Under the pieces are notes generated by a model that did not search any database, was not told the DNA's origin, and was given only the letters and a program-made list of their open reading frames with translations. A stretch of 33,590 nt of DNA from a virus. Location of the stretch: the IMG/VR virus record IMGVR_UViG_3300047551_002370, positions 1 through 33,590 of that record; one strand, written 5' to 3'. Positions within the stretch are counted from its first letter, which is position 1. Every line of letters begins with the position of its first letter. This document shows positions 19,036-32,496 of the stretch, piece by piece. Position numbers and translations under genes: made by a program.

Positions 19036-19304
19036 TATTTAATAAATTCAAGATACTTTTCAATAACTTCATGAGTTGGATCTGCAATAGTTAAAATATC
19101 TTCAGATCTAATCATAAGTTCTTTTTGATTTGTTGCTTCTATCCATGGTTCAAGATAAAACTCTTCGGAAGATTCTTTCTTTTTCCATTGACAAGGATTA
19201 ATCAATTTACAATTTGGATCCCCAAGTTCAGCATCAATTTCGATTATTTCAGTTATTAAAATAGTATCAACTTTCAACAATAGACACTTCACATTCTTTT
19301 CCAT
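19035..19304 (-). CDS. Sm-like family small protein, copy 2
   Basis: 89 aa, beta-rich: NVKCLLLKVDTILITEIIEI, DPNCKLINPCQ, then EPWI and the RSEDILTIADPTHEVIEKYL ending. It is a diverged paralogue of the protein encoded directly upstream (shared PWI and following ILT/VITV-x-P pattern) and overlaps it by 38 nt. GAGG lies 9 nt before the ATG. A cyanophage-type Sm-like protein has a solved structure, and this pattern resembles that family as I remember it. RNA binding is therefore a hypothesis. Confidence 0.7.
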   Translation of the reverse strand: MEKNVKCLLLKVDTILITEIIEIDAELGDPNCKLINPCQWKKKESSEEFYLEPWIEATNQKELMIRSEDILTIADPTHEVIEKYLEFIK

Positions 19305-19602
19305 TTACTTTTTCCTCAAACATTTCTTTTAAAGAACTAATGGGTTCTACTACAGTTATAACCCAATCTGGCGTAACAATAACATCTTTATCTTCAGATA
19401 AAATAATCCATGGAGATAAAGTTACACTGACAACATTTTCAGAATCTTCATTAATGTTTTCAGTTAAAAGAACTGGAGAATTTAAAATAACTTTATGTGG
19501 ATTGGAAAACAAATATCCACATGGTTTTTCATCAGAAACAAGTTCTTTTGCATCGGAAATAATGTAATCTCCGGACTTTAACAATGCTAATTTAGTTGAC
19601 AT
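19267..19602 (-). CDS. Sm-like family small protein, copy 1
   Basis: 111 aa. It shares with the next gene a strand (KLALLKSGDYIISDAKEL), a NPHKVILNSPVLL segment matching DPNCKLINPCQ, a LSPWIILSEDKDVIVTPDWV stretch matching EPWI...IRSEDI, and a terminal acidic helix. First gene of the gp43-uvsX-gp41 operon, directly behind the promoter at 19626-19654. Possibly an Sm/Lsm-like ring protein; family function is not established. Confidence 0.7.
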   Translation of the reverse strand: MSTKLALLKSGDYIISDAKELVSDEKPCGYLFSNPHKVILNSPVLLTENINEDSENVVSVTLSPWIILSEDKDVIVTPDWVITVVEPISSLKEMFEEKVNGKECEVSIVES

Positions 19603-19625: not shown

Positions 19626-19654
19626 ATTTTAGCAAAAAAAGGGGGAGGTGTCAA
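19626..19654 (-). promoter_or_regulatory. Strong sigma70-like early promoter for the gp43 operon
   Basis: TTGACA (19654-19649), 17-bp spacer, TAAAAT (19631-19626). The -35 lies inside the terminator hairpin of Hsp20 and the spacer contains its T-tract. The host sigma70 holoenzyme could use it early. Confidence 0.75.
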
Positions 19655-19677
19655 CTGGATTTTGCCAGTTGCCTCCC
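19643..19677 (-). terminator. Terminator of the Hsp20 gene
   Basis: Stem GGGAGG/CCTCCC (19672-19677 with 19643-19648) plus CAACTGG/CCAGTTG (19665-19671 with 19652-19658), with a 3-nt bulge and 6-nt loop, followed by seven T. It is the strongest terminator in the window and overlaps the next promoter. Confidence 0.93.
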
Positions 19678-19702
19678 AAGCGCCGACGATATTCAAATAT
19701 AT

Positions 19703-20143
19703 TTATAGATAATCTTTACGAGCATGATGTTCTGGAATAATCTTACCAAGAGTTACATTCAATAGTCCATCTTCAAATGTGACCTCTTTGATTGTTGTGT
19801 CGTCAGATAATGTCCATGATCTCTTGAAAGATCGTTGAGCCAATCCCTTATGAATGTATTGTGTATCAGACTCTTTATCCTCTTTTTGCCCTTCGACAAA
19901 AAGTTTTCCATACTCTGTGTATACATGTACTTCCTCCTTCTTAAATCCAGCAAGTGCAAGTTCTAATCTTGATTCTACGTTACTGATTTGAACAAGATTA
20001 TATGGTGGGTAATTAGAAGTCGTCTCGTGAATCTTAAAAATACGATCAAAATATTCATCCATTCCAATGCTATTACGTGTAATCCTGTCCATCAAGGCAG
20101 GAAGATCCGCAGATGTAAACCTAGAAGTTGCAAGGTTAGTCAT
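19703..20143 (-). CDS. hsp20: Small heat-shock protein Hsp20 (alpha-crystallin family)
   Basis: 146 aa. ATP-independent holdase chaperone. The alpha-crystallin domain spans about residues 45-135: YPPYNLVQISNVESRLELAL, GFKKEEVHVYTEYGKLFVEG, FKRSWTLSDDTTIKEVTFED, and the GLLNVTLGK strand. The N-terminal arm and short tail are typical. AAGGAGCT precedes the ATG. It has its own promoter and terminator, so it is a single-gene unit between helicase and polymerase operons. Hsp20 is a common T4-like cyanophage gene; a role in virion folding or host-stress relief is inferred. Confidence 0.95.
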   Translation of the reverse strand: MTNLATSRFTSADLPALMDRITRNSIGMDEYFDRIFKIHETTSNYPPYNLVQISNVESRLELALAGFKKEEVHVYTEYGKLFVEGQKEDKESDTQYIHKGLAQRSFKRSWTLSDDTTIKEVTFEDGLLNVTLGKIIPEHHARKDYL

Positions 20144-20203
20144 TATAGTAGCTCCTTAAAAAGCGAGTTTATGTTGTGTGGACCCTTACGGCATCCGCAT
20201 ATA

Positions 20204-20209
20204 ATTATA
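20204..20209 (-). promoter_or_regulatory. Extended -10 promoter for Hsp20
   Basis: TGTTATAAT on the minus strand gives an extended -10 (TGnTATAAT). No recognisable -35 lies 16-18 bp upstream, where the helicase terminator sits. The 5' leader is about 55 nt. Confidence 0.6.
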
Positions 20210-20225
20210 ACAGAAAGCATAAAAA

Positions 20226-20244
20226 AGGGAGTGTTGAACTCCCT
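20226..20244 (-). terminator. Terminator of the SF2 helicase gene
   Basis: 7-bp stem AGGGAGT/ACTCCCT (20226-20232 with 20238-20244), 5-nt loop, six T on the minus strand, directly upstream of the Hsp20 -10 region. Confidence 0.88.
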
Positions 20245-20258
20245 ACTTTTTTATTCGG

Positions 20259-21866
20259 TTATACGAAAAATTTATCAAGTGCTCCTGAAATTGCCCATTC
20301 AGAAATTTTATCTTCAATAAATTCTCCACAATAAGGACAATTTAATGGGAGTTCATTATTAACAGTATGATTTATACAATTGGGTTTTTGCACACCAGTA
20401 AATTTGTAAAGATAATCAAAACCTTTTTGAGATGTATTAACATAATCTTTTTCAAATTCTTCTAATGATTCTTCCCAAGTTCTTTTTGCCTTGTTATTGG
20501 TAGGGTGCCAGATATCAAAAACATTTGAAATTTTAATAGTTTCAATTACAGTTTCAATATCTACATTATAATCCTGAGGATAATACTTTAAATAATTGTC
20601 AAGATTATTAATATATTCTTTACGAATGATATCGCCAGTTCCAACATTCAATCTCACCATTCTCCCAAAAATTTGAATGGGTATTGGTGTTTTAATCTCC
20701 TTTGGATCACGAACACGACATACAACAGCTGCTGTTAAATTATGGACATTAATTCCAGATCTACCCCTATTAATGACAAGAAGAAATCTAACTGGATCAT
20801 TTGGATCTTGCAATCTAGTAAATAATTCTGAAGAAGTTGGAACAGTTTCTTTAGATCCATCTAATCCCCAAATAGTATTCCCACCACTATTATTTTCTAC
20901 CATAGTAGCAATCATCTTATCTGAAGGATTGCCAAACCCCTCAGTTAAAAGATAATCAGCAATTATTTCTCTAGTTTCAGTAATAGAACATCCCCAAATT
21001 CCCCTCGAATCTCCACACACATAAAATGCACTAAGTTTAGGGTTAATATTTGGATCAGATTTTTTTAATTTAAATAACAGTTCTTCCCGTTTGAAAAGCA
21101 ATTCGATACTTTCTTGAACTGCAGGTTTAATTGAATCAAAACCTTGTGTTTTAGTAAAACTATATGGTTTTGGTCTATTTAACCAAGATTGGGAAGGGAG
21201 AATATCCTCTAATGGTGCAAGTTCTCCAGAAATTTCAAATTGATCAGATAATTTATCATTACCCCTATGATGTTCAGTAGCAGTAGCAGTAAATCCCAAA
21301 ATTCTAGGATTTACATCTCTCCATTTTAAAATTAGTTTAGAAGTTTCGGCAGAGTATTCTGAGGTATAACCAAAATTAACAGTATATGCTTCTCTACCTG
21401 CATCAGCACATCCAATGAATTGATGAGCTTCTTCAATAATTAAAACAGATTCTTTAGCATATTTTAGCAATCTTTCAAAATTAGTAGAGAAGTAAGTGTG
21501 AGTACAAGAAACACAAAGAACTGTCTTTGGTATTTTTCCAATAGCATCTAAAATACTATTACTTGCAGGATCAGCTATAAAAGTGAAATTAACCTCATCT
21601 TCTTTGGATAGTTCTTCAACATGACAAAATGTTCCATCATATGCAACTTCTCTTGTTGGAGATAACCTAAAAATATATTTCATGTCGGGAAATGCATTCT
21701 TAAGTACTAAAGGCATTTCCTTATCTTGATAGTATGATTTTCCTCCACCAGTTTGTAAAATAAAAACCTTTACTTTAGGTTGTGTGTATAGTGAACTATT
21801 AATAGTTTTTTCAAAATTAGAAGCGAACTGTTCATACGCTTTATTTGGACGCATTTCTCTCGTCAT
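20259..21866 (-). CDS. SF2 DEAD/DEAH-type helicase, type III restriction-like
   Basis: 535 aa. NTP-dependent helicase or translocase. Motif I QTGGGKS (38-44), motif II EEAH (145-148), motif III GFTATATEH (about 190), motif VI QIFGRMVRLN (about 405), and a C-terminal probable zinc ribbon (CINH then CPYC). It differs from T4 UvsW in its N-terminus and motif I context, so I do not call it uvsW. ATG 21866 has GAGG upstream. It is a monocistronic unit with its own strong promoter, a structured leader of about 115 nt and its own terminator, suggesting dose control separate from the replication genes. Confidence 0.88.
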   Translation of the reverse strand: MTREMRPNKAYEQFASNFEKTINSSLYTQPKVKVFILQTGGGKSYYQDKEMPLVLKNAFPDMKYIFRLSPTREVAYDGTFCHVEELSKEDEVNFTFIADPASNSILDAIGKIPKTVLCVSCTHTYFSTNFERLLKYAKESVLIIEEAHQFIGCADAGREAYTVNFGYTSEYSAETSKLILKWRDVNPRILGFTATATEHHRGNDKLSDQFEISGELAPLEDILPSQSWLNRPKPYSFTKTQGFDSIKPAVQESIELLFKREELLFKLKKSDPNINPKLSAFYVCGDSRGIWGCSITETREIIADYLLTEGFGNPSDKMIATMVENNSGGNTIWGLDGSKETVPTSSELFTRLQDPNDPVRFLLVINRGRSGINVHNLTAAVVCRVRDPKEIKTPIPIQIFGRMVRLNVGTGDIIRKEYINNLDNYLKYYPQDYNVDIETVIETIKISNVFDIWHPTNNKAKRTWEESLEEFEKDYVNTSQKGFDYLYKFTGVQKPNCINHTVNNELPLNCPYCGEFIEDKISEWAISGALDKFFV

Positions 21867-21885
21867 GTTACCTCTTTAGATTCGT

Positions 21886-21975
21886 TAACTGTCTTTCGAC
21901 ATGTTAGTTGTTATGGGAACATATCCCACCTGAGTGTTTCCACAACAGGTATCTACTACTCAACCGATGTAGTAG
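21886..21975 (-). ncRNA. Structured 5' leader of the helicase gene, four hairpins
   Basis: On the minus strand, in order: CTACTAC/GTAGTAG stem (21969-21975 with 21953-21959); ACCTG/CAGGT with inner GTG-GAAA-CAC (21928-21950); TGGGA/TCCCA (21914-21928); TAAC-TGTC with GAAA loop and one bulge (21886-21906). Two carry GAAA tetraloops. A five-codon frame (MSKDS) lies in the last hairpin at 21902-21885. No riboswitch class is recognised. It could be a cis-regulatory RNA or attenuator, or only stabilise the message. Confidence 0.55.
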
Positions 21976-21990
21976 ACGGTTTATTTATGC

Positions 21991-22019
21991 ATCATAGCAT
22001 AAATAAAGAGGGGTGTCAA
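21991..22019 (-). promoter_or_regulatory. Strong sigma70-like early promoter for the helicase
   Basis: Perfect TTGACA (22019-22014), 17-bp spacer, TATGAT (21996-21991). The -35 sits in the loop and stem of the RegA terminator. The -10 lies between 11-bp inverted-repeat arms (21980-21990 and 21997-22007). A late-like CATAAATA (21989-21982) overlaps the expected start site. Confidence 0.8.
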
Positions 22020-22025
22020 CCCCTC
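22008..22025 (-). terminator. Terminator of the replication operon after RegA
   Basis: 7-bp stem GAGGGGT/ACCCCTC (22008-22014 with 22019-22025) with tetraloop, then a short interrupted T-tract. It begins 5 nt after the RegA stop and contains the next promoter's -35. Confidence 0.75.
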
Positions 22026-22030
22026 AAAGA

Positions 22031-22471
22031 TCATTCGGGTTCTTCACCTCGTTTCTTTTTAGATCCAATGTTGTATTTGGTTTCAAGAATCCAATCACCT
22101 TTGTCCTTGTATGCAAGAACTTTGATTTGATTTAAGGGTGCAATATCCTGAATTTTCGTTACATCCACAATCGTAATTAGACCCCAATCTGCAAGAAGTT
22201 GGGCAATACGATTACGACGCTGAACATCATTCACAGTAAGGTTAGCGTGTTTACCGTCCAGGGCAAACAGTTCCTTAAAGTGAACGAGATAATATCTACC
22301 TTGCTTGTGAAGAATATGGCAAGACTGATAGATTTTCTTTTCCTTTCGTGATGCGACTCCGATACGAGTCAAAGTTTCGCGTACCTTCAAAAAGTCGTCT
22401 GGTTCATTAAGAACCACTTCGACCATTTGATCGGGCGTCCACTTCACTTCAGGTTCTTGAACGACACTCAT
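22031..22471 (-). CDS. regA: RegA translational repressor
   Basis: 146 aa (T4: 122). Binds AU-rich start regions of early phage mRNAs (in T4: gp44, gp45, its own) and blocks ribosome entry. The RegA core is clear from about residue 16: MVEVVLNEPDDFLKVRETLT, YQSCHILHKQGRYYLVHFKE, RRNRIAQLLADWGLI, ETKYNIGSKKKR. GGAGGA 6 nt before ATG 22471 supports the longer start, giving a 15-residue N-terminal extension relative to T4. The start overlaps the gp62 stop (ATGA), as in T4 gene order 45-44-62-regA. Confidence 0.95.
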   Translation of the reverse strand: MSVVQEPEVKWTPDQMVEVVLNEPDDFLKVRETLTRIGVASRKEKKIYQSCHILHKQGRYYLVHFKELFALDGKHANLTVNDVQRRNRIAQLLADWGLITIVDVTKIQDIAPLNQIKVLAYKDKGDWILETKYNIGSKKKRGEEPE

Positions 22472-22849: not shown

Positions 22850-23914
22850 TTATCTAATAATTTCTAAATTGGAATTTGCAGTCCATAATTCCAAAGTTTT
22901 CCTAAGTTTATTGTCTTGAATCAGTTTATTATATCTTCGTGTTGCCTTGACTTTCCACCACTCAATAACCTCTTCAGGTTCATACCCAAACTTTGAAATA
23001 TAATATCTCTTCTTTTCAGTCAAAGTTTTTGCATGTTCAATACATTTTTTAAATTCATGTAGCTTTGAAGCATCTTGAAGAGACTTTATGATGATTGAAA
23101 CCATCTTAGTTTGAATTTTCAATTTCTTTGAAGACTTATCTGCAGAAATTAATCTTTCACCACCATTAGCATTATTGTTAAACCACCAAAACATTTCACG
23201 AAAATAGTCATCATGAAATAGAGGAAGGAAATTACTTTCAGTGTCTCCTATGTGTCGAATATAAGGTTTAAGACCATCATACATGGATACTCCTTTTGTT
23301 GTACCGTATAATGAAGTTGTTTCAAAGTATTGAAGATCAGTTCCATACTTTGCATCAAATTGTCTTTTGAGTTCATTAGAAGATGCCAACAATGCAAGAA
23401 GTTTTCCACCAAGATAATTGTACCCAAATGGTTGTACTGGAACAATGTTAAATCCCATTACAAACTCATGGTTAATTTTAGATAAAGGTAGAACCTCTCC
23501 AAAATAATCATTTCTTGGTTTTGAATTAATAGTTGGAGATCCAAATCGAACAACTCCAATTACTTTATTAGTTGTGTCTTCAGTAATAATCCATTTAATT
23601 GTTCTACCTGGAATTGCTTCTTCAATTGCATTAGAAGCAGTCATGTTTAAAATTTCAGAATACAATTCTTGATTGTACTTAGTCTTTGGTTTAGAACTGG
23701 TATCAACCTCATGAATTGTAAATGTCATATCATTTGGATTTACTGAAAAATCAGAAAATATCTCATCTTCAGGTCCAAATAATTTTCCAGAAGAATTTTG
23801 AATTCTACTCTTCTTTACAAATCGCATATAGTCATCAATGCGATTAAACTTAGAATAATATTCTATAAATTGATCTGCTGCCCAAATAGCATCACTTTCA
23901 GATAATAAACTCAT
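22850..23914 (-). CDS. DUF4338 (DruA-like) protein in the replication operon
   Basis: 354 aa. The core from about residue 105 reads TIKWIITEDTTNKVIGVVRF, then GSPTINSKPRNDYFGEVLPL, FNIVPVQPFGYNYLGGKLLA, LKRQFDAKYGTDLQYFETTS, LYGTTKGVSMYDGL. This follows the order of the DUF4338 family: a strand followed by F-x-S, a conserved R, a helix that begins with a Gly-rich GGKLLALLA, and the E-T-x-LYGT block. DUF4338 includes DruA of the Druantia defence system. Here it lies among clamp-loader genes, so a nucleic-acid-linked role is inferred. Its stop and the gp62 start nearly abut. Confidence 0.65.
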   Translation of the reverse strand: MSLLSESDAIWAADQFIEYYSKFNRIDDYMRFVKKSRIQNSSGKLFGPEDEIFSDFSVNPNDMTFTIHEVDTSSKPKTKYNQELYSEILNMTASNAIEEAIPGRTIKWIITEDTTNKVIGVVRFGSPTINSKPRNDYFGEVLPLSKINHEFVMGFNIVPVQPFGYNYLGGKLLALLASSNELKRQFDAKYGTDLQYFETTSLYGTTKGVSMYDGLKPYIRHIGDTESNFLPLFHDDYFREMFWWFNNNANGGERLISADKSSKKLKIQTKMVSIIIKSLQDASKLHEFKKCIEHAKTLTEKKRYYISKFGYEPEEVIEWWKVKATRRYNKLIQDNKLRKTLELWTANSNLEIIR

Positions 23915-30235: not shown

Positions 30236-30241
30236 ATTATA
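30236..30241 (-). promoter_or_regulatory. -10 element TATAAT before the CobS gene
   Basis: Perfect TATAAT 34 nt before ATG 30201, just after the terminator T-tract of the CobT-like gene. No -35 is recognisable at 16-18 bp. Confidence 0.55.
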
Positions 30242-30244
30242 CAA

Positions 30245-30269
30245 GAAAAAAGGTGCCTTGTGGGCACCT
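30245..30269 (-). terminator. Terminator of the CobT-like gene
   Basis: 7-bp GC-rich stem AGGTGCC/GGCACCT (30251-30257 with 30263-30269), 5-nt loop, six T on the minus strand. Confidence 0.92.
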
Positions 30270-32464: not shown

Positions 32465-32470
32465 ATCATA
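32465..32470 (-). promoter_or_regulatory. -10 element TATGAT before the CobT-like gene
   Basis: TATGAT directly after the terminator T-tract, about 22 nt before ATG 32443. A -35 is not convincing. Confidence 0.45.
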
Positions 32471-32478
32471 CAAAAAAA

Positions 32479-32496
32479 GAGGGTGGTGAAACCCTC
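32479..32496 (-). terminator. Terminator of the repeat-rich late gene
   Basis: 6-bp stem GAGGGT/ACCCTC (32479-32484 with 32491-32496), 6-nt loop and seven T on the minus strand. Confidence 0.88.

Follow-up and report, generated by a model that had tools for sequence, protein, structure and literature searches.

Can a transcription terminator and the early promoter of the next gene be built from the same DNA, and does such a composite stand alone or belong to something larger? The question is raised by two sites in IMG/VR virus record IMGVR_UViG_3300047551_002370, of which the window (the whole stretch analysed, 33,590 nucleotides) is a 33.6-kb viral contig of a T4-like cyanophage (Kyanoviridae); the Synechococcus phage DSL-LC03 is the closest annotated relative found. 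Few ocean viruses are more abundant than the T4-like cyanophages, and to our knowledge post-transcriptional control in them is almost unknown, with one antisense RNA confirmed. Site 1, site 2 and the features related to them are all on the minus strand, where the replication genes run in the order cobT/peptidase-like, cobS, gp45, gp44, gp62, regA, a 535-aa orphan, hsp20, a phrog_431 gene, gp43, uvsX and gp41. From sequence comparison, both sites are interpreted as composite terminator-early-promoter elements, with site 1 laid over a late RNA unit of ~60 nt that is most likely a late small RNA (probability roughly 0.6). The composites comprise:

19643..19677, minus strand: site-1 terminator hairpin GGGAGGCAACTGGCAAAATCCAGTTGACACCTCCC, -19.0 kcal/mol, with a 3-nt bulge in the 3' arm and a covarying base stem
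19649..19654, minus strand: site-1 -35 TTGACA, within the 3' arm of the hairpin
19634..19642, minus strand: site-1 CC and T-tract (the T-tract itself at 19640-19634), part of the 17-bp spacer
19626..19631, minus strand: extended -10 of the site-1 early promoter, TAAAAT with TG before it (TGCTAAAAT)
22008..22025, minus strand: site-2 terminator hairpin GAGGGGTTGACACCCCTC, -11.1 kcal/mol, 3' of regA, with TTGACA across loop and stem
22014..22019, minus strand: site-2 -35 TTGACA, followed by TTTATTTATG
21991..21996, minus strand: site-2 extended -10 TATGAT (TGCTATGAT), again after a 17-bp spacer

The initial annotation had placed TTGACA within the terminator hairpin of the upstream gene at both loci and the T-tract within an exact 17-bp spacer to the -10; both statements hold, the hairpins being strong and both -10 boxes extended. 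At site 1 the TTGACA lies outside the loop, its TT(G) paired in the upper stem and its next nucleotides forming the bulge of the 3' arm. Hairpin and T-tract would end the upstream transcript, and the same DNA would provide the -35 and the spacer for early transcription of the next gene by the host sigma70 polymerase. This geometry (TTGAC in a terminator hairpin plus TANNNT at 16-18 bp) occurs twice in the window versus a mean of 0.06 per shuffle (300 dinucleotide shuffles, one of which reached two), and it recurs in relatives: composites are present in the complete genomes of S-PM2, S-SM2, DSL-LC03, S-RIM8 and S-SRM01, with 17-bp spacing in all, and equally strict criteria gave none in Syn9 or T4. 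Hairpin -35 overlaps across cyanophage sequences number 12 on the terminator strand versus 3 on the opposite strand. The 14-mer GGGGTTGACACCCC, pulled from IMG/VR without bias, gave 109 distinct sites, 57 of them with a T-tract, and 49 of these 57 have a -10 at 16-18 bp; read in the other direction, the palindrome has a -10 in 7 of 116.

Site 1 is the 3' half of a larger conserved element, for which the following features are added:

19700..19707, minus strand: T4-type late promoter TATAAATA, whose TAA is also the hsp20 stop codon (from sequence; same position in relatives)
19680..19694, minus strand: start of the candidate late RNA, with its predicted +1 at G19694 and the conserved 5' block GAATATCGTCGGCGC
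19634..19694, minus strand: predicted late small RNA of ~61 nt, made up of 5' block, terminator hairpin and U-tract (from alignment and model)
19703..20143, minus strand: hsp20, the gene closed by the site-1 terminator
19267..19602, minus strand: phrog_431 gene (unknown), behind the site-1 early promoter and followed by a small open reading frame (ORF) and gp43

Among aligned relatives, conservation begins well upstream of the hairpin, in the order TAAATA, 5-6 nt, a purine, (GA)ATATCGTCGNCGC, a linker, hairpin and T-tract. The TAAATA matches the late promoter box NATAAATA reported for cyanophages (PMC2984593), with a purine start ~6 nt downstream; the base 6 nt behind it is G in 168 of the 170 copies of the commonest spacing, and the purine moves with the box in copies of other spacing. 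A terminator lies 40-60 nt on in 225 of 237 sequences that have the late promoter plus the block (median length of the predicted RNA, 59 nt), the remaining 12 including chance matches and a few terminators missed by the test, such as that of locus L054. TTGACN is wholly within the terminator in 188 of the 237. TTGAC-bearing copies have a -10 at 16-18 bp in 189 of 191 cases (183 at exactly 17), though the hairpin varies, and in these 191 hairpins TTGAC usually forms the 3-nt bulge plus two paired bases. The base-stem pairs are paired in 62/62, 59/62 and 62/62 copies, above every shuffle, and seven of the nine consensus pairs show two-sided changes. The hairpin apex CTGGCAAAATCCAG is common yet replaceable, unrelated hairpins being present in DSL-LC03, S-RSM4 and others; the constant part of the element is the 5' block. 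In copies that lack TTGAC the next promoter can be late, its TATAAATA starting in the T-tract (L043, L117, L137, L341), and in S-PM2, where the neighbouring gene is convergent, block and hairpin are kept without -35 and -10. The -35 is an optional overlay on the site-1 RNA unit. The compact terminator-early-promoter fusion separating transcription units, as initially annotated, is supported by comparative conservation and is incomplete as a description of site 1, where the terminator is one part of a larger unit that has a late promoter of its own and is conserved separately. Insulation of each unit and competition of termination and initiation complexes for the same DNA, which that annotation also put forward, are predictions from this layout.

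A blastn search placed the element in 298-322 phage records, almost all from cyanophages, and thus in about two thirds of the records with a cyanophage-like RegA (about 440-470). All 17 genomes selected by BLAST have exactly one copy, as does S-SSM5, whose choice did not depend on the element, which makes 18 of the 22 genomes tested (reversed-pattern control, zero), and IMG/VR loci chosen only for hsp20 have it in 71 of 74 cases, always in sense orientation. It was not found in T4. Its place varies: the freshwater group, S-CAM1, S-SM2 and S-SRM01 have it 3' of hsp20, and Syn9, S-RIM8, P-SSM7, S-SM1 and others carry it between hli genes and psbA; in Syn9 and S-PM2 hsp20 still adjoins gp43, without the element, which lies 24-29 kb away. 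A tie to one downstream gene is rejected because the neighbours differ between phages. A covariance-model search of Rfam gave no match to the element even at an E-value of 10, which sets aside a known RNA family, and the hairpin core had one match among 84,980 species genomes, in an archaeal metagenome-assembled genome, and none in cyanobacterial genomes, which sets aside a host origin. What is observed directly is the anatomy of the sequence, its conservation and covariation, its copy number, its presence at different loci, and the cases in which the promoter overlay is lost while the RNA unit stays.

Single copy, independence of neighbours and transcript-like borders together form the pattern of a small RNA gene: the element has its own promoter and intrinsic terminator (as motifs only), and it is conserved independently of its neighbours, in different loci, as a single copy and beside a convergent neighbour in S-PM2. 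We infer from these features that the site-1 RNA is transcribed, terminated, made late and active in trans. The composite would overlie the 3' end of a separate unit, in which a late promoter of the gp55 type, sharing bases with the hsp20 stop codon, would start an RNA of ~60 nt consisting of GAAUAUCGUCGGCGC and the terminator hairpin, with the 5' block as its working part. The one hairpin would then serve three transcripts, ending the hsp20 mRNA, ending the small RNA and, as DNA, carrying the early promoter of the gp43-proximal genes. More tentatively, at somewhat less than even odds, site 1 may mark a trans-acting small RNA that is single-copy and widely conserved in T4-like cyanophages and that the gp55-type RNA polymerase makes late, with a terminator that doubles as the early promoter of the next operon (-35 in the bulge, T-tract as spacer), so that late RNA synthesis and early operon initiation would share the same 60 bp.

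Several points weigh against a small RNA. The conserved block was partly used in selecting the IMG/VR set, so that the best measures of its conservation are the flanking CGC, the loci selected for hsp20 and S-SSM5. The element was not found in P-SSM2, P-SSM4, P-HM1 or S-SSM7, and is therefore not essential for all cyanophages; the convergent neighbour is present in just one annotated case, S-PM2; and no recurrent phage mRNA target of the 5' block was found with RNAduplex in the start regions of six genomes. As a candidate only, C variants of the 5' block (19692-19682, minus strand), AUCGUCGCC, would complement GGCGACGAU, which we take to be a conserved segment of 16S rRNA. The commonest variant of the block (G) breaks this complementarity.

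Bacterial small RNAs of 3' untranslated regions (3'UTRs) that have their own promoter combine a promoter near the end of the upstream ORF, a shared terminator and a conserved single-stranded 5' block. Promoter position, shared terminator and conserved 5' block are common to the site-1 element, which differs in being phage-encoded, in its late sigma promoter and in a terminator that also holds the -35 of the next gene. The CfrI antisense RNA of cyanophage S-PM2, ~225 nt and antisense to psbA/endonuclease (PMC2984593), is likewise a non-coding RNA of a T4-like cyanophage; the site-1 candidate differs in being ~60 nt long, intergenic and located elsewhere. The cyanophage motifs wcaG, manA and PhotoRC-II of Rfam are also conserved RNA motifs, but cis-regulatory ones of 5'UTRs. 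The ~60-nt element has defined ends, occurs once per genome and exists naturally in forms that have or lack the promoter overlay; it offers a candidate small RNA open to direct testing, and a clean setting in which to ask how terminating and initiating complexes use the same DNA.

Site 2, by comparison, is a module border between regA and hsp20. Its surroundings are:

22031..22471, minus strand: regA
21982..21989, minus strand: late-promoter-like CATAAATA, directly behind the site-2 early promoter (from sequence)
20259..21866, minus strand: cargo ORF of 535 aa, without family match, between regA and hsp20
20204..20244, minus strand: standing terminator of the regA-hsp20 junction, GGGAGTTCAACACTCCC, with T-tract and the extended -10 of hsp20, TGTTATAAT

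The regA-hsp20 junction is short (~108 bp) in 89 loci, where it consists of a terminator (typically GGGAGTTCAACACTCCC), a T-tract and an extended -10 for hsp20, and its hairpin is without TTGAC. Filled junctions (~20 loci, with 0.5-4 kb of cargo) have a second terminator ahead of the cargo gene, which in 8 of the ~20 carries TTGAC and a -10 for the cargo, against TTGAC-bearing hairpins in none of ~95 empty junctions. Most of the cargo genes have (A)ACCGAATAA or something very similar at their end, a repeat of how regA finishes ahead of the standing terminator. A TTGAC terminator confined to filled junctions, together with a repeated regA end, is what module exchange mediated by promoter-stem-loops would leave. 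Cargo genes at this insertion hot spot were noted in L008, L052, L062, L095, L096, L104, L153 and L160, most with ends like ACCGAATAA.

Promoter-early stem-loops (PeSLs) of T4-like phages, which Arbiol in 2010 and Comeau in 2014 are said to have described, reportedly pair a strong sigma70 early promoter with a stem-loop terminator at the borders of exchangeable genes. Both sites resemble them in their sigma70-like early promoters (TTGACA, 17 bp, extended -10) and adjacent stem-loop terminators (hairpins with T-tracts), and site 2 also in lying at an exchangeable-gene border, as its filled and empty junctions indicate; it would act like a PeSL cassette, opening the cargo gene inserted between regA and hsp20. 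The most credible alternative, itself unlikely, is that both sites are ordinary cassettes of this type and that the site-1 block is simply part of a 3'UTR or late leader and does not act as an RNA in its own right. Site 2 fits it exactly, independent fusions are present in S-PM2, S-SM2, DSL-LC03 and S-SRM01, and a passage of PMC4503421 cites descriptions of composite promoter-terminator motifs in T4-like phages. PeSLs differ, however, in that a genome reportedly has many of them, similar enough to serve as recombination substrates, whereas site 1 is single-copy, overlies a late-promoter RNA unit and has a 5' block that is better conserved than the promoter and persists where the promoter is gone. 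A TTGACA inside the hairpin and a T-tract in the exact 17-bp spacer further distinguish the present sites, PeSLs being compared by description only. Within that limit we regard as new, above all, the conserved late RNA unit missing from Rfam, and also the recurrence at scale of a -35 placed inside the hairpin.

Rather improbable is a cis-acting late leader or attenuator, in which the late RNA polymerase starting from TATAAATA would be conditionally stopped at the hairpin and so control the downstream gene: this gene is mostly co-directional and often phrog_431-gp43, but the gene found there changes from phage to phage, S-PM2 lacks a co-directional one, and there is no conserved alternative antiterminator pairing. 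A DNA-level signal that is transcribed incidentally, such as a replication origin or protein-binding site, seems slightly less probable again; it would account for the single copy, independence of position, invariant ATATCGTCG and common hairpin apex, but the element is bordered by a promoter start on one side and a terminator on the other, unrelated hairpins can replace its 3' part, and the absence of any link to GC-skew extremes in six genomes (a weak test of origin function) led to rejection of a replication origin. A mere coincidence of hairpins with AT-rich promoter-like matches agrees with the shuffle-level number of promoter-like sites as a class (65 in the window versus 67.8 expected, no enrichment) but is refuted by the near absence of the specific geometry from shuffles and the conservation of the site-1 element copies and GGGGTTGACACCCC sites in relatives.

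Among neighbouring features, the 535-aa cargo ORF has homologues in L052 (66%) and L065/L096 (96%) and no match in Pfam, PHROG, NCBIfam, PADLOC or PDB; by eye, its translation appears helicase-like. A DruA-like protein (22850-23914, minus strand; Pfam PF14236, 5.5e-12) adjoins gp62 within the replication cluster, and S-SM2 and S-SRM01 have a same-sized 'putative cytoplasmic protein' at this position, the likeness being one of size and place only. The hsp20 5'UTR (~20203-20144, minus strand) has a leader, GGATGCCGNAAGGGTCCACA...AACTCGCTT, that is conserved upstream of hsp20 in most loci and may form a small hairpin. The initial annotation was also right in placing a -10 directly behind a terminator upstream of hsp20 (20244-20226, TATAAT), cobS (30269-30251, TATAAT) and the CobT/peptidase-like gene (32496-32479, TATGAT), at a distance of 8-16 nt and with a good -35 at none; the latter two are:

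30236..30269, minus strand: terminator, then TATAAT, upstream of cobS
32465..32496, minus strand: terminator, then TATGAT, upstream of the CobT/peptidase-like gene

At two further terminators (1828-1811 and 722-703, minus strand) the T-tract leads directly into TATAAATA, forming terminator-late-promoter fusions.
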